Positions 1,738 to 17,468 of a stretch of DNA of 27,204 nucleotides are shown here, piece after piece. Each line of letters starts with the position of its first letter. The first letter of the stretch is position 1. Origin of the DNA: a virus. The stretch spans positions 1 through 27,204 of IMG/VR virus record IMGVR_UViG_3300010885_031956; one strand, given 5' to 3'. The translations under genes were made by a program, and so were the position numbers. Under the pieces are notes generated by a model, which did not search any database, was not told the DNA's origin, and saw nothing but the letters and a program-made list of their open reading frames with translations.

Positions 1738-3855
1738 TTATGCAAGCCGGGCAGGAATCCAATAGGCTGTGCCTGTGTCATCAATCACCTTCACTTCAGA
1801 AGGGTATTCGGTTTGGTCAATGCCGGGTGCAGTTGTTGCCTGTGCTTCCCGAACAACTCTAGTTTCCATAATTGTGGAATCTATAAAGGTAATGCCTGTG
1901 TCAGCATCAGCTGTAAGGCTTCCAAATAGACCTGATAGGCTAAGTGTTGAAGGTGTCAGAACATTCACACTTTGCATTGAAACAAAGTCATGCCCGAATG
2001 CTGAATCAAACCCTGAACCCTGAACCCTGTATGTGTTTGCATTCAGAATAATTCCTGTGGTGTTAATCGTTAGCCCTTCAAACTGTGGGGTGTCAGTTGT
2101 GTTCAACGATTGGTCAAAACTTAAACCACCTATGTCCGATAAGGTGGCAAATGAATTTATAGATGTTGGGCTGTTGGCTGTGCTTAAAGCAGCTGCAATT
2201 AAATTGCCTGCACCTTCTGCGTTGTTAACCCCTAGGTTTTGCCAAATGAAATCCTGTTCACCTGTGGTTGGTGATTGGTTCAAGTCTCTGCGAACAAACC
2301 GGGCATTGGCAACTGTTTCATCTAGCGCATTGGCTAAGGTCTGTGGAGCAAATGCACCATCAGCAATAACCTGACCTTGGATTAAGCAGCTAGTTTGGCA
2401 GATGGTTTGGATTTCTTCCCCTGCTTCTAATTGAATTTCAATGGTAGCATTAGCAGCTGTGGCTGTTCCCAAATAAGCAATAGCTTCAGCTGTGCCTAAG
2501 CTAAGGGATGACTTCTGACCGGGAAGGGCAGGTAAGTCGCTAATGTCAATGCCCACGATTTCCGGGCCTGTGACTGTCGGATTACTGCGGAAAGTGTTTA
2601 ATGCAATTGTTGCAACTTCAGCCAATTCACCTGAACCGTTTTGTGTGACTGTGACTAATGGGTTGCAGGTTGGATAAAGGGATAAGCTGCGAACGGACAA
2701 AGCAGTTTTATTACCGGGAAGATTCCAAGTGATAATGAATTGCTGATTGAATGGAAGTGCTGGGGTTGCTGTGTAGCTTTGATAGGGTGAAAGCTTCAGT
2801 TTACCTTCATCCTTCCCAACCGTTAAACCGCCACCTGCGGTCACAGATGCTAAAAGATTTAATGCTGTTTGAACAGCTGTTGCAGTTGCGTTCCATGGAA
2901 GGTCAGTTGTTTCATCGCCATCATAAGAAATGCGGAAGTTTCCTTTATAGGAATTTTCAATGTCCCCGGCAGGGTCTGTGTAATCAGGCGCAACAAAGTC
3001 TGCCCGCCATTTGTAAGGGTTCGTATTGGTAATGGCTAAACCCCAATTATTAAGTGTGCGTTGGCCTAGGGCAGCTTGACCTTCAAAGATGTCCCTGCCC
3101 CAACCATTAAAGGTTAACGCATCAAAGATTTTTTGACTGATAACAGTTGGGCTATCAGAAACTGCAATAGGGTCTGTCCAAATTGTGTATGATTCTGTAT
3201 CACCCCAAGTTAACTGCAAACGGTATGTGCCTGCCTTAAAGTTTCCGGACAGCTCAAATGTGTTAGCTGTGTAAGCTCCGGCAGGTGCATCAATAGATGT
3301 GAAGGTGTCTGTGTAGGCAATGGGTCTGACAGCTAAGTTAACTAGGACAACTTCAGCTGCTGAACCTGAACCTTCCTGAAGAACCTGCTGTTGGATAACT
3401 GAAGCAGGAAACAGGGATTCATCCCGGCTGACAAATTCTAGGCGGTCACCAACAACATTGAATGTAATGTTAAACTGCGTTCCAACCTTGGAGACAGTCA
3501 CACCACCAATAGCTGTAATAGAAGCTAAAGCATTTAATTCTGTCTGAACCTGTGTTGCTGTGGCTTCAGCATCTAGGGCATCTGTTTCATCACCGTCATA
3601 GGATAAGAACCATGAACCATCACTAGGGTTTTTATTGATAGAACCAATTGCAGCTTTAACGGTTGAACCCGCAGGGAAAGGAATGGTGAAGTAGGGAACA
3701 GCACCGGATTGGCTAGGCTGAACAAGGTAAATTTCAATTGGCACATTATCACCCAACACAAACCTAGGATTGATTGCTCCGGCTACACCATCAGTTGATG
3801 GCAGTAGCTGCCCTGTTTCTAAATTTACTATTAGTCTTGTTGCCCTAGTTGCCAT
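1738..3855 (-). CDS. Large tail-tip/adhesin-like protein with duplicated beta domain
   Basis: This 705-residue protein has no recognised enzyme motif. Two segments, about residues 80-176 and 305-422, are clearly related: each begins with SYDGDET, continues with an ATAT.VQT.LN.LAS pattern and a GG.TV.K strand, and ends in a GSG..AEV stretch. I recall similar VQTALN-type repeats in large secreted proteins of Planctomycetes and Verrucomicrobia, from memory only. The N-terminal ~50 residues resemble a BppU-like start, and the C-terminal third is rich in Ser, Thr and Asn. The gene follows a glycosyltransferase and precedes the fibre genes, so it is probably a structural tail-tip or receptor-contact protein. 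Its start carries one copy of the five-copy start element, and TAGGGCAAC recurs just inside the gene. Confidence 0.8.
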   Translation of the reverse strand: MATRATRLIVNLETGQLLPSTDGVAGAINPRFVLGDNVPIEIYLVQPSQSGAVPYFTIPFPAGSTVKAAIGSINKNPSDGSWFLSYDGDETDALDAEATATQVQTELNALASITAIGGVTVSKVGTQFNITFNVVGDRLEFVSRDESLFPASVIQQQVLQEGSGSAAEVVLVNLAVRPIAYTDTFTSIDAPAGAYTANTFELSGNFKAGTYRLQLTWGDTESYTIWTDPIAVSDSPTVISQKIFDALTFNGWGRDIFEGQAALGQRTLNNWGLAITNTNPYKWRADFVAPDYTDPAGDIENSYKGNFRISYDGDETTDLPWNATATAVQTALNLLASVTAGGGLTVGKDEGKLKLSPYQSYTATPALPFNQQFIITWNLPGNKTALSVRSLSLYPTCNPLVTVTQNGSGELAEVATIALNTFRSNPTVTGPEIVGIDISDLPALPGQKSSLSLGTAEAIAYLGTATAANATIEIQLEAGEEIQTICQTSCLIQGQVIADGAFAPQTLANALDETVANARFVRRDLNQSPTTGEQDFIWQNLGVNNAEGAGNLIAAALSTANSPTSINSFATLSDIGGLSFDQSLNTTDTPQFEGLTINTTGIILNANTYRVQGSGFDSAFGHDFVSMQSVNVLTPSTLSLSGLFGSLTADADTGITFIDSTIMETRVVREAQATTAPGIDQTEYPSEVKVIDDTGTAYWIPARLA

Positions 3856-3875
3856 TTGGTTGCCCTAGGTTGTCA
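3853..3875 (-). promoter_or_regulatory. Start-associated element, copy A
   Basis: Read on the minus strand this is TGACA, three bases, then TAGGGCAACCAAATG, the ATG starting the 705-residue protein. The TGA is in frame with the upstream glycosyltransferase gene, 12 bases after its TAG stop, as a second stop. AGGG lies seven bases before the ATG and could act as a weak ribosome binding site. The block recurs at four other late-gene starts. Confidence 0.75.
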
Positions 3876-3884
3876 CCCATTTGC

Positions 3885-6863: not shown

Positions 6864-8165
6864 TTAGTTAGATGAGACAATCCCGGATGCAGGTGGTGAA
6901 CCGCCACCATTTGCAATGCGTTCAACAGCAGCTGCGGTTCTTTCAGCTGCGCTTAGTTGCTGTTCCGCAAGCCCAACCATTGAATCTGAACCTGTATAGA
7001 ACCCACCACCACCACCCATAGCCTGCATAGATGAAACAGCTGCCGGAAGATTAGAAAGGGCTTCTGTGTTTTTAACAGCATCCAATGCAGGCATGTCAGG
7101 AAATAACTTTTCAAATTTTCGTTTTAATTCTGCATCAACCATTTCAGATGTTTGTGTGACACCGTTAACTTCTCTGCCTGTGTAAGCTGCCCTGAATTCA
7201 ACTGCCATTTCAGAAAATGCCTTTAGCCTATCTTCTTTTTTAGTTAAAGATGTGTCCATTCCTCCTGTTGTTGTAAAACCTCTAGCAACATCTTCATTAA
7301 ATCTTGTTGCTTCACTTTTTCCAATCCTAGCAGCTTTTTCTGAAAGTGTTAATGGGGTAGCTGCATCAGCAAACTTAGAAGCTGCTTCCTGTGCATTGGC
7401 TTTTGACCGGGTAATTATTTCTGAAAGGTTATTAAAAAAACCACCTTTAGAATCTAGTTGTTTATCTAGTGCTTGTCTTGCATTTTGTGCATCAGCATCA
7501 ACTGCTGATGTTGAAACTGTATTTAATGCCATTTGTTGTTCAACTGTTCCCATTCCTAGAATACCTTTAAGTTTTGAACCTTTGTCACCTAATAAATCAG
7601 TAGCTACTGCTAATCTTTGTGCATCAGTTGTAGCTTGTTTATACCGTTGGCTAATTCTAAATAAAACTTCTGTTGAAGAAATCTGACCATTTTTTACTTC
7701 ATCTTGTGTGAATCCTAGTTTTTTCAAACTTTCAATGGCTTCTAAATTTCCATTTTTAGCAGCTGAAACTGATTCTGTTATTGAATCAAATGCTTTAGCC
7801 AATTCATCAACAGATGTTCCTGTTGCTTCAGAAACATTTTTTAACCTTTGGTAATCTTCAACCCCTAAACCTGCTTTTTTAGCTTCTGATGAAAGCTTTG
7901 CCATTTCATCTAATTTTTGAATAGCCTCATTTATACCTGATGTGAAATAGCCAATAATAATGCCAATACCTAAAAACCGTTTTATTAAACCTGCACCCCA
8001 TTTTTCTGCTTTGTCTTTCATTTGGTCTAATCCTGTGGCAACAGGTTTTGTTAAACCTTGAGCGGCTGTTTGGCCTGCCTGCTGTGCTGATTTACCTAAT
8101 CCAGCTAAACCCGCTTGCGCAGCTTTGCCATCAAACCCAACTTTAATTGTAATGTCATCAGCCAT
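6864..8165 (-). CDS. Tail tape measure protein (short)
   Basis: This 433-residue protein is mostly helical and rich in Ala, Lys and Gln, with a hydrophobic stretch at about residues 62-76 (RFLGIGIIIGYFTSG) like the membrane-active segment of tape measures. The N-terminus (KVGFDGKAAQAGLAGLGKSA) is a typical tape measure beginning. The C-terminal tail is Gly- and Ser-rich. It lies between the chaperone-like gene and the distal tail genes, as expected. With about 0.15 nm of tail per residue, known for this family, the tail would be near 65 nm. Its start has a variant of the five-copy start element with a short insertion before the ATG. The call is confident from composition and order. Confidence 0.88.
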   Translation of the reverse strand: MADDITIKVGFDGKAAQAGLAGLGKSAQQAGQTAAQGLTKPVATGLDQMKDKAEKWGAGLIKRFLGIGIIIGYFTSGINEAIQKLDEMAKLSSEAKKAGLGVEDYQRLKNVSEATGTSVDELAKAFDSITESVSAAKNGNLEAIESLKKLGFTQDEVKNGQISSTEVLFRISQRYKQATTDAQRLAVATDLLGDKGSKLKGILGMGTVEQQMALNTVSTSAVDADAQNARQALDKQLDSKGGFFNNLSEIITRSKANAQEAASKFADAATPLTLSEKAARIGKSEATRFNEDVARGFTTTGGMDTSLTKKEDRLKAFSEMAVEFRAAYTGREVNGVTQTSEMVDAELKRKFEKLFPDMPALDAVKNTEALSNLPAAVSSMQAMGGGGGFYTGSDSMVGLAEQQLSAAERTAAAVERIANGGGSPPASGIVSSN

Positions 8166-8190
8166 TGCCTTTGGTTGCCCTAGACAGTCA
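8163..8190 (-). promoter_or_regulatory. Start-associated element, copy B (variant)
   Basis: On the minus strand: TGACT, GTC, TAGGGCAACCAAAGGCA, then ATGG. It differs from the other copies by a short insertion that moves the ATG downstream and creates AAAGG closer to it. The TGA at 8188-8190 is the actual stop codon of the upstream gene. Confidence 0.7.
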
Positions 8191-8811
8191 CCCCTTTTTC
8201 TTAGGATTTTTCAGCTGTTCCTTCAGGGCTTTATTGGCTTTTGCCATTGCTTCAGCAACCATTGACTTAGCCATTGGCAACTTATCTTCCTGTTCTGTTG
8301 TTAGAATGTCTAGGTCTGCGCCTGACTTAATAGCATCTGCAAAAAAGTAGAACATGGCCCTTCCTTCCGGCATTGTCCAAACCTGTTCTTCTGAAAAACC
8401 TATTTTAATAAGTGATGTTACCACAGACAATTTCCAATCTAAACCACGGTTCTTTTGGTCTTTTGACTTCTTACCACTAACAATAGGGTGGCTAGCTGTA
8501 TCTTTAATGTAATTCTTCCATGATTCTAATTCAGCATTTAGAAGCTTTTGGTTATTTGCATACATAACCACCCTAAAAGAATCCATAAATTTTGAATCTG
8601 TGACTGCCTTGAAAGGGTCTGCAATGGAGCAAATCCGGGCAGCTAAGATTATGTCTGATGGTTTAACGGTTGGCTGAAATGTGCCGGGCAACAATGGGCT
8701 ATTGATGGCTTCCAATGTTATCCTGTGTCTTAGGCAGAATGGTTTTAATGTATAGCCTGCAACCTTGTGGTTAGTAAGGTTTAAGAATGCGCCTAAGAAT
8801 CTGTTGTCCAT
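8188..8811 (-). CDS. Putative tail assembly chaperone
   Basis: This 207-residue protein sits between the tail tube gene and the tape measure, the invariant place of tail assembly chaperones in long-tailed phages. It is helical, with a Lys-rich C-terminus. No strong internal slippery site with a long second frame is visible. The only A/G run is at the extreme 3' end, where a -1 shift would add four codons before a stop. It may therefore lack the usual frameshifted form. The start ATG lies only a few bases after the T-tract of the preceding terminator, so expression depends on read-through. The function is inferred from gene order. Confidence 0.7.
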   Translation of the reverse strand: MDNRFLGAFLNLTNHKVAGYTLKPFCLRHRITLEAINSPLLPGTFQPTVKPSDIILAARICSIADPFKAVTDSKFMDSFRVVMYANNQKLLNAELESWKNYIKDTASHPIVSGKKSKDQKNRGLDWKLSVVTSLIKIGFSEEQVWTMPEGRAMFYFFADAIKSGADLDILTTEQEDKLPMAKSMVAEAMAKANKALKEQLKNPKKKG

Positions 8812-8871: not shown

Positions 8872-9243
8872 TTAGGCAGGCCCACCTGCAATTTCAGGGT
8901 AAGATTCCCCACTTACTGAGTAGCGGGAATAACCTGCATTTTCTGTGCGGAGGTCGGCCTTCATAACAATGATGTTAGTTAACTCACCTGTTAAGAAACT
9001 AGAATAAGTAAGAACATCACCGGGCTTAGGTGGGGTAGTTGATTCAAAAACCAACGCATCCATGCTAACATCAATCTTAGCATCACCTTGATGAATTGCT
9101 AAGGTTGTGCCTGAACCATCTTTGGCATAATCTGTGTTGTTATAACTTTGGCTGAAAGAAGCGCTTTGCACATACATTCCTGCATAATCTTCTGCCCCAC
9201 GATAAAGGGCAACGCCATGGTCAATGTTATCAGGATAAGCCAT
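8872..9243 (-). CDS. Major tail tube protein
   Basis: This 123-residue protein lies between the tail terminator-like gene and the chaperone-like gene, the standard place of the tube protein. Its predicted beta content, lack of charged helices, and Gly/Ser-rich composition fit a tube subunit. It is small compared with lambda gpV (246 residues) but within the range of minimal tube folds. A strong intrinsic terminator follows, consistent with high expression, and a copy of the recurrent start element precedes its ATG. No sequence motif identifies the family, so the call rests on order, size and terminator placement. Confidence 0.75.
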   Translation of the reverse strand: MAYPDNIDHGVALYRGAEDYAGMYVQSASFSQSYNNTDYAKDGSGTTLAIHQGDAKIDVSMDALVFESTTPPKPGDVLTYSSFLTGELTNIIVMKADLRTENAGYSRYSVSGESYPEIAGGPA

Positions 9244-9263
9244 TTGGTTGCCCTACTTTGTCA
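9241..9263 (-). promoter_or_regulatory. Start-associated element, copy C
   Basis: On the minus strand: TTGACA, AAG, then TAGGGCAACCAAATGGC, where ATG starts the tail tube protein. The upstream gene ends at a TAA five bases before the TGACA core. This is one of the copies closest to consensus. Confidence 0.75.
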
Positions 9264-9267
9264 ACTT

Positions 9268-11078: not shown

Positions 11079-11116
11079 AGGTCAATTTGGATGGGTTTAA
11101 TGGTGGGTTGGTAGAG

Positions 11117-11145
11117 AAGATAAAGGGGGCTTACAGTAATAGCAA
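11117..11145 (-). promoter_or_regulatory. Weak candidate promoter after capsid terminator
   Basis: On the minus strand TTGCTA and TATCTT are separated by 17 bases, each matching four of six positions of the sigma-70 consensus. It lies between the capsid terminator and the head-closure gene. The match is weak, and the host sigma preference is unknown. Confidence 0.2.
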
Positions 11146-11155
11146 AAACTTCAAC

Positions 11156-11187
11156 AAAAAGGGCTAGCCACCGTAGCAGCTAGCCCC
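11156..11187 (-). terminator. Intrinsic terminator after major capsid gene, UACG tetraloop
   Basis: On the minus strand an 11-bp stem (GGGCTAGCTGC paired with GTGGCTAGCCC, including two G-U pairs) closes a TACG loop flanked by C and G. In RNA this is a C(UACG)G tetraloop of the very stable UNCG class. TTTTTG follows directly. It lies 22 bases after the capsid stop. Confidence 0.85.
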
Positions 11188-11207
11188 TTGTTCAGACTAA
11201 CCCGGAA

Positions 11208-12062
11208 TTATGGGTTATAGACTGAAGCCAATGTGCCTGTGGTCACAGCCTTAGCTGAACCAAACATAAGCTCAAAGGAAGCAACATGACTGCGGGTGAC
11301 ATTGTCAGCCCACAGGTTGAAGTAAACAGACAAGCCAAGGTCACCAATAGGAATGATGCTTTGGGCAATCATGTTTTCTTGGAAGCCCTGCATTGCTGGC
11401 TGTGCGCTTGCGATTGCAAGGGCTTCTTTGGAAACTGCAAATCCTGCAAGGTCAGATTCCGAAGGGAATGCACTTGCGTAGAACACACCATTTTCAAAGC
11501 CATAAGCACCTGCTGAAAGGGGCAGACCTGTGGTTGAAGTAGGGATAAGGTTAGAATAGATGCCTGCGTTAACAATCAGACCTTTGCGCTGGGCCTTGCT
11601 TACGCCTGCCCAAAGCTTTGCGAGGTTGCCGGATGAAGGAGTGACAGCAGAATCAGCTGCGGTCACAGTAGCTGCACCATAATTAGCAACGGTGATAGGG
11701 TCTGTGGCAATTGCCCAAATTGCATCAGCAAGGGCATCAAGGTTAACCTTAGTGAGATTCTCTAAACGAATGTCGTTTTGAAGGTCGCTGTATTCTAAGC
11801 CAAAAGGCTGATAGATGTGGTTAAGCTCCACAGTTGTTTTGCCAACCGTTGTCCCACCAATGTCATTGAAGGTGGTTGGGTTGGTTTGTGTGGCAGAACC
11901 TGCGGAAACCACAGGTACTTGGATGGTGTCTTTAGGGCGTTTGACATCATTGCTGAAGTCTGTGCTGAAAAGAGCTAGGGCAGCTAGGCGGTTAGCCAAG
12001 ACTGTTTGCGCCTGAGATGCGACAGAGTCGACAATCAGAGCTGCGTTAATGGTGTTAGACAT
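11208..12062 (-). CDS. Major capsid protein
   Basis: This 284-residue protein follows the scaffold and is followed by a strong terminator. It is rich in Ala, Thr and Ser with few Cys, and its order after terminase, portal, protease and scaffold is that of a major capsid gene. Segments such as VKRPKDTIQVPVVSAG near the N-terminus and the long Ala-rich centre fit an HK97-fold capsid, though no diagnostic motif is certain. No cleavage site is recognised, although an S49 protease is encoded two genes upstream. The start is preceded by an A/T-rich leader (CCTTAAACTATT) without a Shine-Dalgarno sequence, notable for what should be the most expressed gene. Confidence 0.85.
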   Translation of the reverse strand: MSNTINAALIVDSVASQAQTVLANRLAALALFSTDFSNDVKRPKDTIQVPVVSAGSATQTNPTTFNDIGGTTVGKTTVELNHIYQPFGLEYSDLQNDIRLENLTKVNLDALADAIWAIATDPITVANYGAATVTAADSAVTPSSGNLAKLWAGVSKAQRKGLIVNAGIYSNLIPTSTTGLPLSAGAYGFENGVFYASAFPSESDLAGFAVSKEALAIASAQPAMQGFQENMIAQSIIPIGDLGLSVYFNLWADNVTRSHVASFELMFGSAKAVTTGTLASVYNP

Positions 12063-12086: not shown

Positions 12087-12527
12087 TTACTTTTTGAAGG
12101 AAGCTGCCCAAATAGCCTTTTTGTTAGCAGATAAGAATGCAAGGCGTTCAGCTCCGGTAAGGCTGTTATACTGTTCCAAGATGGACTGAGCTGCCTTGGC
12201 AGGCGTTTCTGCATTAGGCGAAATAGCGACAGGGTCAGCAGAACAAGCTGCAACGATTGAAGCAGCTTTGGCTTCAACGGTTTTGTTAGAAGCTTCAAAA
12301 GTCTTTAGGCGCTCATCAGCAATGGCGAGAGCTGCAACCAAAGTTTCTTTTTCTTTGTTGGCTTCTGTTTTGAAAGATTCAAATGAAGTTAACTCAGCCT
12401 TAGCTGCGGAAAGTAAAGAATCCGAATCAAATAGCTTTTGGGTAAGGTTGCTGATGTCGTTAGACATGGAATCAACCTTGGAAGCTAAAGCTTCATTAAG
12501 CTGTTCAACGGTCTGATTAGGATTCAT
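12087..12527 (-). CDS. Nested internal-start scaffold protein
   Basis: Translation from the ATG at 12525-12527, in the same frame as the HAD fusion, would give a 146-residue helical protein beginning MNPNQTVEQLNEAL. It ends KKAIWAASFKK and contains a segment (AASIVAACSADPVAIS) resembling scaffold or protease C-termini in other phages. The ATG is preceded by AAGGGCAATCAA, a copy of the start element found at four other late genes, with AAGG well placed for ribosome binding. In lambda the scaffold Nu3 is likewise made from an internal start, but within the protease gene. That this shorter product is made is inferred. Confidence 0.6.
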   Translation of the reverse strand: MNPNQTVEQLNEALASKVDSMSNDISNLTQKLFDSDSLLSAAKAELTSFESFKTEANKEKETLVAALAIADERLKTFEASNKTVEAKAASIVAACSADPVAISPNAETPAKAAQSILEQYNSLTGAERLAFLSANKKAIWAASFKK

Positions 12528-12968
12528 TTGATTGCCCTTGTTAGTCAACTTTGCTGAAGGTTTAGGTTTCATAATAATAGCCATTGGTTCTTCAGAATCT
12601 GATTCTTTTTCTTGGCCTGCAATGATTGTTGCAGGGTCTGTGACCTCCACACCCAATTCAGCAACTGCTTCCCGGTTAGCAGAATCATTATCAATGAATT
12701 CATCAACTTCTTCACCTTTGTCTAGGTATTCTTTAACTTTAGATTTCTTAAATGCAGGTGCAGGTTCACCTGTATCATTCATTATCAACCGTTCATAGGA
12801 AAGCCCTGTTTTCTTTAAGTCAGCAACGGTTTGTTCTCGGTCAGATTCAGGACGGTTAGTTAAAATAACAACTTCTTCTGCTTCTGCTTTGATGTAATCA
12901 ATAACAGCTTTAACAGGGTTTCCCTTTTCTAAAATTGTTCCATCAATGTCTGTGATGATGCGTGGCAT
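12087..12968 (-). CDS. HAD-family phosphatase fused in frame to scaffold-like protein
   Basis: This 293-residue frame joins two unlike halves. Residues 1-116 have the four HAD motifs in order: DIDGT (7-11), the Thr of LTNRP (37), Lys in FKKSK (about 74-75) and FIDND (91-95), as in small phage phosphatases related to the 3'-phosphatase of polynucleotide kinase. Residues about 117-147 are an acidic, then Pro/Lys linker. Residues 148-293 are a helical, Glu/Ala-rich, scaffold-like part with coiled-coil character. Between protease and capsid, a scaffold is expected; a HAD enzyme is not. An internal ATG at residue 148 carries the recurrent start element, so both the full-length and the short form may be made. 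Whether the HAD half acts in capsid assembly or on nucleic acid is unknown. Confidence 0.8.
   Translation of the reverse strand: MPRIITDIDGTILEKGNPVKAVIDYIKAEAEEVVILTNRPESDREQTVADLKKTGLSYERLIMNDTGEPAPAFKKSKVKEYLDKGEEVDEFIDNDSANREAVAELGVEVTDPATIIAGQEKESDSEEPMAIIMKPKPSAKLTNKGNQMNPNQTVEQLNEALASKVDSMSNDISNLTQKLFDSDSLLSAAKAELTSFESFKTEANKEKETLVAALAIADERLKTFEASNKTVEAKAASIVAACSADPVAISPNAETPAKAAQSILEQYNSLTGAERLAFLSANKKAIWAASFKK
12525..12547 (-). promoter_or_regulatory. Start-associated element, copy D, stop replaced by AAG
   Basis: On the minus strand: TTGACT, AAC, then AAGGGCAATCAAATG. At the position where the other four copies have TAG this one has AAG, so the upstream frame reads through into the scaffold part. 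It is the only copy inside an open reading frame. Confidence 0.65.
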
Positions 12969-12970
12969 GA

Positions 12971-13768
12971 TTATGCGTTTAGGCGGTTAATAATTGATTC
13001 AATGTTAGGAGCAATCCCGGTTATGATACCTAGCGAAGCAGCTTTTCTTCCTGAATACCATTGACCATTCATGGCTTCTTCAGGGATGGATTTACGAACA
13101 CTTTTAAGGTCATTCTTAAACACCTGAGCATTTTCCATAATGTCTGCTTTCATGAAGTCTAACTGTTCCTGTGTGACTTCTGCACCTTCATAGCCTGCGC
13201 CTTTAGCCCACCCGGAAGAAATAACATGAACCTTAATGCCTGCATCAGCAAAGGCTTTTGAATAATCAGCAATGGAAGCCACAGCACCAATAGAACCATA
13301 AGTGCCGGAAGCCATACCCCAAACCCGGCTAGCCATGCCACCAATCCAAAGACCTGCTGAATTGATGTTAGCACCAAAAGTTTCCACAGGCTTGGTTGAA
13401 TTCTTAACCATGGCAGCTGATTCTTCCACACCTACTGTGTATCCACCGGGTGTGTCTGCATCTATCAGAATAGATTTAATGGCAGGGTCTGCTAGCGCAG
13501 CTTGGAATTGTGCGTTGAAATCTTTAAGGTCAACCATTCCTAAAGCCTTGTCCATAGGGCTTAAGTCATAACCTATGACACCTTTTAACGGTATCAGGGC
13601 CACGCTTCCAACCGTCTGCGCCTTTGGTGCTTCACCCATCAGCATGGCTAACAAGTTGCTATTCTGCGGTTCTGCTAGGCTAGCAGCTCTACGGAAGAAA
13701 GCATTAGCCTTAGCGGGTTCAATCATCATGCCACGGTTGGCATTCAATGTGATGTTAAGTGAAAGCAT
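12971..13768 (-). CDS. S49-family head maturation protease (SppA/gpC-like)
   Basis: This 265-residue protein has a DTPGG segment at 104-108 and a candidate nucleophile Ser137 in NSAGLW, followed by a GSIGA turn at about 158-162. Lys189 in GWAKG matches the general-base position of single-domain S49 enzymes. The order and spacing match the S49 clan, including lambda gpC. It lies right after the portal gene, overlapping its stop (TAATG), and before the scaffold. It would cleave scaffold and perhaps capsid during maturation. No signal peptide is present, as expected for a capsid-internal protease. The family call is firm; the catalytic residues are by motif only. Confidence 0.9.
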   Translation of the reverse strand: MLSLNITLNANRGMMIEPAKANAFFRRAASLAEPQNSNLLAMLMGEAPKAQTVGSVALIPLKGVIGYDLSPMDKALGMVDLKDFNAQFQAALADPAIKSILIDADTPGGYTVGVEESAAMVKNSTKPVETFGANINSAGLWIGGMASRVWGMASGTYGSIGAVASIADYSKAFADAGIKVHVISSGWAKGAGYEGAEVTQEQLDFMKADIMENAQVFKNDLKSVRKSIPEEAMNGQWYSGRKAASLGIITGIAPNIESIINRLNA

Positions 13769-15351
13769 TAGGATTGGTTTATAGGTGGGGAAGTTTCATC
13801 AGCATCTGCTACTTCTATTGCATTGCCTTCATCATCTGTTGATTCACTTGAATCTTCAGCCATGTCTGCTTCTGCGGTTGCAGGTTCAACATAGGGTGTA
13901 GGTTGTCCGGCTGTATCAGCAGGTTTAGAAAGAATGCTAGTTAGGCTAACATCATCATAGGTCATACCCCTAGCTTGTGCTTGTGCGGTTGCCCATGCCT
14001 TAAAGTCTAATCGGGAAATCACATGGGCTTCTGCATCTTCACCTAATTCTTCAATAATGTCCTGAAGGTTCTTTGTTCCTGCTTCCAATTCCCGGATGGT
14101 TGCTAAGGTATCACGGCCCACATCAACTGACAATCTGCGTGGGGTGTTAAAGGTCATTTTCTCCCAACCTGCCTGAGCAGGAAGAATCCCGGCTGTGATG
14201 CGGTCTGCTAAGACAAATTGTTTTACAGGTTTTTCTAACGAATCGATTAGGATTCTTTGCATCACAGCAAATTGGCGTTCAGATTTTGCTAATTCCATGC
14301 GCACAACTGCGCCACCAATCTTGGTTGGATTCAACAGGAAGTCAGAACCAAGCCCTGTTGCCACAGCTGTTTCCCGGTCAAGCACATCAGCAAACCCCAA
14401 CACATTCATTGAAGGTCTGTTGTGTTCAAATGCTTCTAGGCTTTCGTTAGGCTTCAAAGCCATAGCCAAACCGCCAAAGGCAGTAGCAACATCATCAGCT
14501 GTTGTCTGTGTTCCGTTTGCACCCCTAGGAACAGCATTGCCTAGGATACCTGCATCCTGTGAATCAAATTCACCTGAATCACTTTTCAAAGTGAATGTGC
14601 GCCTTGAGAATTCTTTAACCGCTAATTTTTCTGCTGATAGGATTTCTGCTTTGTCCCTCATGGTGGTGACTGAGACATTAAGCTTTGAAATCCCCCTAAC
14701 ACCTGTGAAGCGGTCAGGGTCATAAACATGGATAATTGCAGCTGCGCCTTTAATGTCATCTTTCCCATCATCACCTTTGATGCAGTAGGCAATAGGTCTG
14801 CCAACCTTATCAAACTTAATTCCATTGCTCCAACCATCTTGGTTAACAATTCCATCAGGGTTTGCAACCTTGTGACTTTCTATGGCTTGGATGGCAGGTC
14901 TGCCATCTGTGTGACGGGTTTTTAGAAAGAAAATGTCCCCATCCACAATCAATGCTTTTGTGGTCATGCGTAGCACCTGAAGCCAATTATAGCGTCCATC
15001 AATCGTTGGCTTGATGTTAAACAATTCAATTTCTTCTTTAGCAGCTTTGTTCCATTCAGGACTAGATGTTAAAGGTTGATAACGGAAACCATCACCTACT
15101 GAATAAGTCAGATGGGCATTAGTGAACGCATTAACAAAGGCATTGTTCTTATCTAGTGACCGCATTAGCCGGACGATTTCCCGGTGGTCACCTGAAGTCA
15201 TTTCATTCTTTAAGTCACTAGGCGCAGAGTGCATGACCCTTCCCCGGCTTGTGGTGAACCGGGTTGAATCATAATTCATTCCCTGTTTGCGGAACAAACC
15301 ACCTATTGAAGTGGTTATGCGTTGAATTATGCCTTTGGGTTTTTTCGCCAT
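13768..15351 (-). CDS. Portal protein (lambda gpB family)
   Basis: This 527-residue protein has features of lambda-type portals: an N-terminal basic segment, an R.R...RNNAFVNA-like stretch (KNNAFVNAFTNAH at about residue 69), a GDGF turn, an SHKV..PDG segment, and a central HVYDPDRFTGVRGIS region typical of the family. The C-terminal ~60 residues are strongly acidic and probably disordered. Its neighbours are the gpW-like joiner upstream and the S49 protease downstream, the same order as lambda W-B-C. It would form the twelve-subunit ring for DNA passage. The start ATG has no Shine-Dalgarno sequence. Confidence 0.92.
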   Translation of the reverse strand: MAKKPKGIIQRITTSIGGLFRKQGMNYDSTRFTTSRGRVMHSAPSDLKNEMTSGDHREIVRLMRSLDKNNAFVNAFTNAHLTYSVGDGFRYQPLTSSPEWNKAAKEEIELFNIKPTIDGRYNWLQVLRMTTKALIVDGDIFFLKTRHTDGRPAIQAIESHKVANPDGIVNQDGWSNGIKFDKVGRPIAYCIKGDDGKDDIKGAAAIIHVYDPDRFTGVRGISKLNVSVTTMRDKAEILSAEKLAVKEFSRRTFTLKSDSGEFDSQDAGILGNAVPRGANGTQTTADDVATAFGGLAMALKPNESLEAFEHNRPSMNVLGFADVLDRETAVATGLGSDFLLNPTKIGGAVVRMELAKSERQFAVMQRILIDSLEKPVKQFVLADRITAGILPAQAGWEKMTFNTPRRLSVDVGRDTLATIRELEAGTKNLQDIIEELGEDAEAHVISRLDFKAWATAQAQARGMTYDDVSLTSILSKPADTAGQPTPYVEPATAEADMAEDSSESTDDEGNAIEVADADETSPPINQS

Positions 15352-15354
15352 AAA

Positions 15355-15612
15355 TCAGTTAAAGTCTAACCCGGAAAGGTCAGAAGAAAGATGGCGGTTC
15401 TTTGAACCATACTTGGAGGGCCATTTCTTTTGAAGGGCATAAGTCACTTCATCCAAAAGGCTTTCTGTGCTAATTGCTATCTGCTTCCCAACAGATGTTC
15501 CTGAGTCTGACCAACTAGTGACCGTAGCACCCGCAACTAAATCTGCTAAACACCTTGTTCTGAGTGTTAGCAATTCTTGTTCAGTCAAGGTGACTAGGAT
15601 TCCTTTAGCCAT
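15355..15612 (-). CDS. gpW-like head-tail joining protein
   Basis: This 85-residue protein lies between large terminase and portal, the position of gpW in lambda. It is of similar length (gpW is 68 residues) and has two helical segments around a short beta-like centre. The LTLRTRCLADLVAGATVTSW stretch followed by a Gly/Ser turn and an E..L..V..AL helix fits the gpW family pattern. It would sit below the portal and help attach the tail. It starts with a near-consensus copy of the recurrent start element. Confidence 0.8.
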   Translation of the reverse strand: MAKGILVTLTEQELLTLRTRCLADLVAGATVTSWSDSGTSVGKQIAISTESLLDEVTYALQKKWPSKYGSKNRHLSSDLSGLDFN

Positions 15613-15632
15613 TTGGTTGCCCTAAGATGTCA
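15610..15632 (-). promoter_or_regulatory. Start-associated element, copy E
   Basis: On the minus strand: TTGACA, TCT, then TAGGGCAACCAAATGGC. The TGA at 15630-15632 is the stop codon of the terminase, so the element bridges the stop of one gene and the start of the next. Confidence 0.75.
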
Positions 15633-17468
15633 ATTATCATCAGCTTGTGCTTCAGTTTCTTCTGAAACTTCAGGTGCTTTAACATTTCCAACACTTGATT
15701 TGCTTTCACCTGCTAGCCCAAAGACCAAAGCAGGTAGCATAATAATCACTTCACAATCCCACAAGTGATTAGCCCTTTTAGCAGGGGCTTTCCAAATTGG
15801 CATTCCTGCCGGAGTCTTAACCCTGCGTTCAGATGCCATTTGTTTAATGTATTCTTCCCCGGCATCAGTTGGGTATTGGTGGACAGCAGACCTGCGCAAC
15901 CGCCATAGCAAGTCTTTGAATGCTAAGTTTCCAAAGTAATAAACCCTAGTCACCAAACCCTTAAATGGTTCAACTTCCCTAGGCTTAGAATAAGGTTTGT
16001 TTTTAACTTTCATTGTTCCATCAGCCTGCTTAACAGGCCAAGGGAAATCATTTTTCTTTGTGCCTCTAGTGCAATTCCAACCTAGCCGGGCAGCTGTTCT
16101 GTGGATGAAATCTTGTTGGTCACCACAATCAACAAAGGTGAATGGTGCTAGCACACCACATCTTTTCCTAAAGGCTTCAACTTCATCAATGGTGTGATAA
16201 AATGCCCAATCAACTAGTCTGCTTTTGCCATCAGTTGCGTAAGCCCGGCAGAGACAATAGAAACCATCCCTTTGCACATCCACACCAATGAATCTTAGCC
16301 GGGCATGGCTTGTTTTTGTTTCATCCCTTTTGGCTATGACCTGCCGGGTGTCTAAGTCATAAGCACCTTCATCAGCCCAATCTTCCTTTAACTTGAATGC
16401 ACCGGGTGTGACTTCATCAGTTGAATCCATGATTTCTGACGAAAAGGGAAGGGCTAATTGCTTCTGCCTGAACAGCTGCATGGGCATTTCATCACCATTG
16501 CTTTGGGCTAGTTTAGCCTTTGCCCATTCAATTGCAGTCTCACCCCAATTTCTCGCAGGCAAAGCATTCCAATGGAAGCCACGGTTAGCATCCCGGGCGT
16601 TGAAGTTAACCCGGACATAGCACCCTGTTTTGTTCAAGGTATCCCTTACCCCATCATCATCATCATAAAGTTTTCCACATCCCTTGCAGGCCATCTTTGT
16701 TCCTTTGGCAATTAAATCTTCATTGATGCCATCTGCTGTCAGACTTCCTTCAGGAATCTTGATGGCTTCCCATTCCCACGGTTGAACCGTTGAACAAGCT
16801 TCACACTTCCAACTGTATTCTTCCTGTGTGCTACTCTGCCATTGTTTGTCATTGTCATCATCAATCAAACCCGCCTGCCCAACCATCACGGTCTTAGCTA
16901 GCCAACCATAAGAAAGGTTGCGGGCTTGCGCTTGTTTAAGGTGTCCGGGTTTCAAGCTCCATGTTTCATCAATGAACACCCACTTGACATGGTAGCGTTG
17001 CAAGTTGCTTTCTGCATCTGCACCCAATGTCCAAACGGTTGAACGGTCAAGGCGCAGGCAATCCCACCTAACCTGTTTGTCATTAGGCAACAAAGCTGCA
17101 ACAGGTGGGCAACCGTCCCAAACTTTTCTTAATGCGTTCCTATGAAAATCCCTAGCTGCATCATTCTTAGGCTGATAAATTAAAATGTCTGAAGGGGCTT
17201 TGGCTAAGATGTAAGCTGTGCAAACACAGATGTAGATAGATTTGCCAGAACCCACAGCTGCCATGTTAATAATGGTTCTAACTTCCGGGTCAAAGGTGGC
17301 TTCAATCGGTGTCTTTAACCAAGGGGTGTGTGTAGGGTCAAAGCTTCCAACAATACCCGGAAGAACCCTGCAATGTTGCGCCATCCAATCAAGTGGGGCT
17401 AAGTCATCTGTTGGCTTAAAGACTCCTAGCAAATCTGATTCAAACTGTTCCTGTGTGTCTGAAGCCAT
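15630..17468 (-). CDS. terL: Terminase large subunit (lambda gpA family)
   Basis: This 612-residue protein has an N-terminal ATPase with Walker A AAVGSGKS at 70-77 and Walker B WVFIDE at 163-168. A zinc-binding pair, CEAC (222-225) and CKGC (261-264), lies between ATPase and nuclease. The nuclease half has GVDVQ (395-399), FVDCGD near 447, and a late acidic HLWDCE motif. Length and motifs match the gpA family, which makes cohesive ends in lambda. It follows the small subunit with a TAATG overlap. It would cut and pump DNA into the prohead through the portal. The C-terminal ~30 residues are acidic. Confidence 0.95.
   Translation of the reverse strand: MASDTQEQFESDLLGVFKPTDDLAPLDWMAQHCRVLPGIVGSFDPTHTPWLKTPIEATFDPEVRTIINMAAVGSGKSIYICVCTAYILAKAPSDILIYQPKNDAARDFHRNALRKVWDGCPPVAALLPNDKQVRWDCLRLDRSTVWTLGADAESNLQRYHVKWVFIDETWSLKPGHLKQAQARNLSYGWLAKTVMVGQAGLIDDDNDKQWQSSTQEEYSWKCEACSTVQPWEWEAIKIPEGSLTADGINEDLIAKGTKMACKGCGKLYDDDDGVRDTLNKTGCYVRVNFNARDANRGFHWNALPARNWGETAIEWAKAKLAQSNGDEMPMQLFRQKQLALPFSSEIMDSTDEVTPGAFKLKEDWADEGAYDLDTRQVIAKRDETKTSHARLRFIGVDVQRDGFYCLCRAYATDGKSRLVDWAFYHTIDEVEAFRKRCGVLAPFTFVDCGDQQDFIHRTAARLGWNCTRGTKKNDFPWPVKQADGTMKVKNKPYSKPREVEPFKGLVTRVYYFGNLAFKDLLWRLRRSAVHQYPTDAGEEYIKQMASERRVKTPAGMPIWKAPAKRANHLWDCEVIIMLPALVFGLAGESKSSVGNVKAPEVSEETEAQADDN

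Follow-up and report, generated by a model that had tools for sequence, protein, structure and literature searches.

A HAD phosphatase domain fused in frame to a putative phage scaffold across a candidate internal start element

In an uncultivated phage, a single open frame between the head maturation protease and the major head protein joins a HAD phosphatase domain to a putative capsid scaffold. We put at roughly three in four the probability that this one frame makes two proteins from two starts, a long HAD-scaffold and a short scaffold beginning at Met148. At the sequence level, what is demonstrated is the fusion, the in-frame start element within it, the counterpart of that element in the leaders of stand-alone scaffold genes, the clean gain and loss of N-terminal modules, and a constraint on the linker that acts on nucleotides. 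If two proteins are made, the same bases can both encode a linker and start a gene, and a domain can be added to an essential assembly protein without loss of the unmodified form. A search of the open-licence literature found no paper describing a HAD-scaffold fusion.

A HAD-scaffold fusion in a lambda-type head cassette

The window, by which we mean the whole stretch of DNA analyzed, comprises 27,204 nucleotides (IMG/VR record IMGVR_UViG_3300010885_031956). Its head cassette runs on the minus strand in the order terminase, 85-aa connector-like gene, portal, S49 protease, HAD-scaffold open reading frame (ORF), and major head protein, and the protease and portal are of the lambda type (Table 1). 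Two-part homologues of the fused gene with the same layout are found at L001 to L006, L012, L015, L016, and L131 (L numbers are our locus labels). Six viral relatives, 46 to 48% identical to the fused protein, are all fused and have a Met at the place homologous to Met148, while the HAD part alone is 60 to 72% identical to that of independent contigs. Since independent contigs have the fusion in common, a local sequencing or assembly error was rejected as its origin. A tblastn search of the phage collection returned no cultured relatives of the fused protein, and GTDB genomes gave no useful prophage relatives, only one weak match of 50 residues (L141).

Table 1. Positions of the features discussed (window coordinates unless a locus is named)
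Feature	Position	Strand	Basis
Fused HAD-scaffold gene (long form)	12087..12968	-	Uninterrupted open frame, 293 aa; two-part homologues
HAD phosphatase domain, aa 1-114, T4-Pnkp-phosphatase-like	12627..12968	-	Pfam, phrog_415, AlphaFold, VIA-align, conserved motifs
Disordered linker, aa 115-147, contains start element	12528..12626	-	AlphaFold, pLDDT <50 for 118-149
In-frame element copy, TTGACTAACAAGGGCAATCAAATG	12525..12548	-	Pattern search, 2 mismatches; ends in Met148 codon
Proposed short form: 146-aa scaffold ORF nested behind the internal ATG (Met148)	12087..12527	-	Element directly upstream; Met homology
Scaffold coiled coil, aa 150-242	12243..12521	-	AlphaFold/DSSP helix 150-242
C-terminal helical segment, aa 258-290	12099..12197	-	AlphaFold helices 258-268, 273-281, 283-290
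S49 head maturation protease, directly upstream of fused ORF	12971..13768	-	Peptidase_S49 E=2e-13; phrog_53 E=2e-40
Lambda-family portal	13768..15351	-	PF05136 E=2.6e-33
Major head protein homologue, directly downstream of fused ORF	11208..12062	-	phrog_283 E=1.2e-5
Element copy before 85-aa connector-like gene	15610..15633	-	Exact match; relatives' homologous gene also carries element
Element copy before 123-aa tail-tube-like gene	9241..9264	-	Exact match; homologue L001 6737 also has element
Element copy before tape-measure-like gene, ATG at 8165	8168..8191	-	2 mismatches
Element copy before 705-aa gene	3853..3876	-	1 mismatch
Cys-rich domain copies	L028 5137-5499; L050 5168-5536; L054 4460-4828; L087 5030-5395

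The initial annotation, made from the letters of the window, had described a complete HAD domain with all four motifs. The DxD of motif I, the Thr of motif II (in LTNR), the Lys of motif III, and the leading Asp of motif IV (IDN) are indeed present, and T37, K74, and D93 are invariant in alignment A5; at the other acidic position of motif IV the protein has an Asn. Pfam matches were Hydrolase_6 (E=3e-7) and Acid_phosphat_B (E=1.4e-6). An AlphaFold model of the fused protein, built on an alignment of 7 rows and with a mean pLDDT of 74.6, has pLDDT values mostly of about 90 or more over residues 1 to 110. The best fold match to this part, by VIA-align, is the phosphatase domain of T4 Pnkp, residues 159 to 298 (Z 16, root mean square deviation 1.9 Å, 113 residues). 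The domain thus resembles the 3'-phosphatase domain of T4 polynucleotide kinase in predicted fold and in the residues of motifs I, II, III, and first position of IV, whereas it differs in its sequence (19% identity), in having no kinase domain, in the Asn that follows the first Asp of motif IV, and in being fused to a scaffold. The likeness lends support, at the level of the modeled fold, to the suggestion that this is a phosphatase of the nucleic-acid type, and the enzyme may act on nucleic-acid 3'-phosphates.

In the same model, Met148 falls at the boundary between the HAD domain and the coiled coil, where the scaffold begins, and the C-terminal helices are a putative coat-binding end. The scaffold role itself is putative, and is assigned from the position between protease and capsid genes, the coiled-coil form, and a weak profile similarity to the head scaffolding proteins of phrog_2303 (E=0.09). 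A profile search of the fused family against PDB by sequence returned nothing beyond ribosomal protein L9 (E about 0.01), a match that we took to be coiled-coil noise.

A start-associated element recurs within the fused gene

A 24-nt element, TTGACNNNNTAGGGCAACCAAATG, is present in five copies in the window at three or fewer mismatches, all on the minus strand, and 100 dinucleotide shuffles gave an expectation of 0, by which a chance origin was ruled out. Four copies precede gene starts; the fifth lies in frame within the HAD-scaffold ORF, differing by a T-to-A mismatch that makes AAG of TAG and by a C-to-T mismatch. As first noted from the letters alone, the frame is open at this AAG from the HAD domain into the coiled-coil region. 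The initial annotation had also placed a TAG seven bases before CAAATG-type starts in the four other copies; the spacing is six bases. In three of these copies the TAG shares its frame with the ATG that follows, the exception being the copy at 8168 to 8191, where the ATG lies further on. For the copies at 8168 and 15610, the stop codon of the upstream gene is not this TAG but a TGA within the TTGAC/GTGAC half. No strong Shine-Dalgarno sequence was found in the leaders.

Being repeated, confined to one strand, placed directly before start codons, and more frequent than chance allows, the element invites comparison with the Start-Associated Sequences (SAS) of Cluster K mycobacteriophages, for which the consensus is given as GGGATAGGAGCCC (PMC3203893). 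Both are short asymmetric repeats, mostly on one strand, that immediately precede the start codons of a particular group of genes, and in both the upstream stop codon is sometimes inside the element (PMC3203893, in its portions dealing with the SAS). Those portions describe no SAS copy as the linker of a fused protein, and mention one exceptional copy that is not before a gene start (PMC3203893). The window consensus, TTGACNNNNTAGGGCAACC, differs from that of the SAS, so that by sequence the element is SAS-like, not SAS. When other viral contigs were searched for it, one match was obtained (L142).

The relatives of the window have a different element, TT(T/G)ACC-N5/6-CCAAGG(G/T)TA(A/G)G, which immediately precedes the start codons of a gene set that overlaps the window's. 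Across 19 loci, which are related and whose counts are therefore not independent, it has 72 matches on the coding strand and 0 on the other, against about 0.8 expected by mononucleotide shuffling, and for 71 of the 72 copies an ATG is no more than 10 nt away. An in-frame variant of this element precedes the scaffold Met of the relatives, and scaffolds of the MSKLTPE type have a gene-specific variant, CCAAG(T/A)TTAAG, before the scaffold start. Window and relatives thus differ in the element that they use, but in both a copy lies in frame at the corresponding point within the fused gene. The nearest relatives do form one uninterrupted family over both halves, which is half of what the initial annotation had named as refuting its reading, but each keeps an in-frame element variant. 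In L097 to L103, which are fused and have the internal Met, no recognizable element was found elsewhere in the genome. As a broader observation, a family of SAS-resembling elements marks an overlapping set of head and tail genes across phages that have diverged (the window, L016, L057, L109, and L138).

Such an element might be a promoter that gives the scaffold and other genes separate short transcripts, instead of a translation signal. In L004, L012, L015, L016, and L104 the element of the neck gene abuts the T run of a terminator-like hairpin, a placement that fits a promoter or restart role, and the variation of 0 to 9 nt in the spacing from element to ATG points the same way. Inspection by eye, however, found no sigma-70-like -10 sequence at the right distance, and phage-type RNA polymerase (PF00940) was not found in ten records, which are fragments and for which control genomes were silent too. 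We consider a promoter unlikely, and since it would still give the short form, it would change only the mechanism of the two-product reading. The neck gene of the window likewise has a terminator-like hairpin upstream (11079 to 11207), without the full element.

Scaffold genes of related phages gain and lose N-terminal modules

A set of loci gathered by searching with protease and portal showed that the lambda-type cassette of portal, S49 protease, scaffold, and capsid is common to many uncultivated phages. The scaffold in these relatives either stands alone or carries at its N terminus a T4-Pnkp-like HAD domain, a "WALWGG" domain, or both in tandem. Among the 120 loci in which protease and scaffold were found, both proteins are plain in 66; in the remainder the scaffold has HAD, WALWGG, or both, or the protease has a module, or HAD is a separate ORF. 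Stand-alone scaffolds behind an intact stop are seen in L057, L091, and L104 to L111, and fused ones in, for example, L001, L085, and L131, while HAD and scaffold are separate ORFs in L052 but joined in its near relatives L085 and L086. The Met homologous to Met148 is the scaffold start in the stand-alone relatives. The proposal that the window joins two separable genes is thus supported at the DNA level.

Pairs of near-identical genomes differ only by a clean module of about 340 to 390 nt. The fused L058 and the stand-alone L091 are identical at 301 of 303 positions before the protease stop and at 299 of 300 after the scaffold ATG, and a single 343-nt module is present in one only, with the leader intact. 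Further pairs of this kind are L001/L057, L138/L136, L018/L023, and L043/L056. On a protease tree, many of whose branches are weak, parsimony requires at least 23 changes of architecture, a count that does not tell gain from loss. The window has a branch length of 2.2 and is unplaceable on this tree, which was therefore used only for turnover among the relatives.

The ~110-aa WALWGG domain, FPGAGAVAWALWGG, ends in AWALWGG, corresponds to phrog_2859, and has no Pfam match. It is fused to scaffold N termini (L040 5103-5500 and L058 816-1190) and is also present in the prohead protease of Pontimonas phage phiPsal1 (L144). In L027 (5416-6213) the S49 protease has a HAD domain within its acidic C-terminal tail, and a comparable tail in L032 and L055 lacks HAD (L080 also serves for comparison). 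Some relatives have a Cys-rich domain (CxNCVxYxGxxxC...GDIDPNxxCKLW) at the C terminus of the S49 protease.

The leader is conserved as DNA when it becomes a linker

The leader of the scaffold start is kept almost letter for letter where it is non-coding, in the stand-alone genome, and where it is read through, in the fused one. L057 and L001 share the leader TCTCCAAGTTTAAGAACATC|ATGAGCAAA, and L056 and L043 share AATTCCAATCAAAGCAAACATAAG|ATGACCAT. In the L104 group a TAA stands in frame in the leader, two codons ahead of the ATG, and in the fused L012 and L131 one extra base shifts that TAA out of frame. The T-to-A difference of the window would serve in the same way, if the direction TAG to AAG is right. 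No close relative of the window was found, the nearest viral relatives being at 46 to 48% identity, and for the lineage of the window that direction is inferred.

The linker is also constrained beneath the amino acid level. In the ten codons before the internal Met, synonymous changes number 5 of 292 (1.7%), compared with 26 to 29% elsewhere in the gene. Corrected for amino acid and pair, the linker of an all-fused clade has 2 observed synonymous changes against 20 expected (0.10), the lowest of the 287 intervals so scored, and a second lineage of 39 genes has 59 against 510, one of its two deepest troughs; the pair counts behind these figures are not independent, and the figures are to be read as ranks, not probabilities. 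In a third lineage, in which the WALWGG domain (X-domain) is joined to the scaffold, the eight codons before the Met are only mildly constrained (44 vs 65), and synonymous change is lowest at the Met codon itself and just downstream of it. Of the HAD-fused genes retrieved, the 54 that are distinct and complete all keep the internal Met. The kept leader, the invariant Met, and the synonymous constraint together give DNA-level backing to the long and short pair from one frame that had been raised at the outset.

Conserved linker DNA would also be expected if only the long protein were made and the linker were a recombination seam for modules rather than a start site. Modules swap often, the leader is the exact edge of homology in the gain and loss pairs, and use as a seam could account for part of the conservation. 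In stand-alone genomes, however, the same leader must start the scaffold gene, and the constraint persists in the clade in which every member is fused. Nor would a shared seam predict that the window's version of the element matches its other gene starts, or that the internal Met is invariant. A seam with no second start therefore strikes us as quite improbable.

How the two forms might act in the prohead

In the mechanism that we propose, the scaffold gene between the protease and capsid genes is preceded by a start leader of its own, and a HAD gene upstream in the same frame reads through the leader, which would double as linker. The long HAD-scaffold would be made from the first ATG and the short scaffold from Met148. 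Both forms keep the coiled coil and the C-terminal helices and should thus co-assemble, so that some scaffold molecules would carry HAD into the prohead.

HAD or other modules attach to the scaffold and to the protease, both of them prohead-interior proteins, and these points of attachment suggest that HAD may enter the prohead as cargo, an idea for and against which we find the balance about level. The top BFVD matches to the HAD domain, 33 to 35% identical over the domain, are prohead proteases of uncultured phages, fusions read from record names and lengths; HAD of the same kind thus appears to ride on another prohead-interior protein elsewhere. A wider and more tentative proposal, to which we give somewhat less weight than to its opposite, is natural cargo loading, in which swappable domains (HAD, WALWGG, and Cys-rich) are tethered to scaffold and protease and the start element in the linker determines how much of the scaffold is loaded and how much is not.

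HAD might, on the other hand, work in the cytoplasm, the fusion being a by-product of gene packing and the long protein either cut in the linker by the protease or a minor product with no role in the prohead. The separate ORFs of L052 beside its fused near relatives would suit such an arrangement, as would the predicted disorder of the linker. It is harder to reconcile with the attachment of HAD and other modules to the protease as well, or with fusion being the common state among the best HAD relatives: the best 80 loci from a search with HAD only are nearly all scaffold fusions, and the exceptions seen end at contig ends. We regard a cytoplasmic HAD as rather doubtful.

The two-start reading has precedents among known head genes. 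The scaffold Nu3 is annotated within the protease gene in phage 434, and Mu and Mu-like phages have a nested in-frame protease and scaffold (PMC4378225). As in lambda C/Nu3 and Mu, translation of the scaffold would begin in frame within a longer head gene, so that the two products have the C-terminal region in common; the scaffold ORF of the window shares frame and C terminus with the longer gene of the head cassette and carries a start signal of its own inside it. Unlike lambda C/Nu3, the protease of the window is its own upstream gene, the scaffold is nested in the gene of a HAD enzyme domain, and near-identical relatives differ through exchange, gain, and loss of the N-terminal domain.

In virus-like particles of P22, cargo has been fused by design to the N terminus of the scaffold, the C-terminal part of which is kept, and in some designs unfused scaffold is co-assembled (PMC9962691). 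The window has the same placement, with an enzyme at the scaffold N terminus and the C-terminal part of the scaffold kept, whereas its arrangement is natural and its unfused form would come from the same gene. This suggests that phages use the layout that protein engineers picked for P22 cargo loading, and the HAD-scaffold gene may be a natural way of loading enzymes into viral heads. What use a procapsid would have for an enzyme of the 3'-phosphatase type becomes a question open to experiment, and the HAD family beside prohead proteins offers a marker for finding such systems. Outside the head cassette, the window has a tail-fiber-like ORF with collagen-like GIQGIQG repeats at positions 3 to 1415 on the minus strand.
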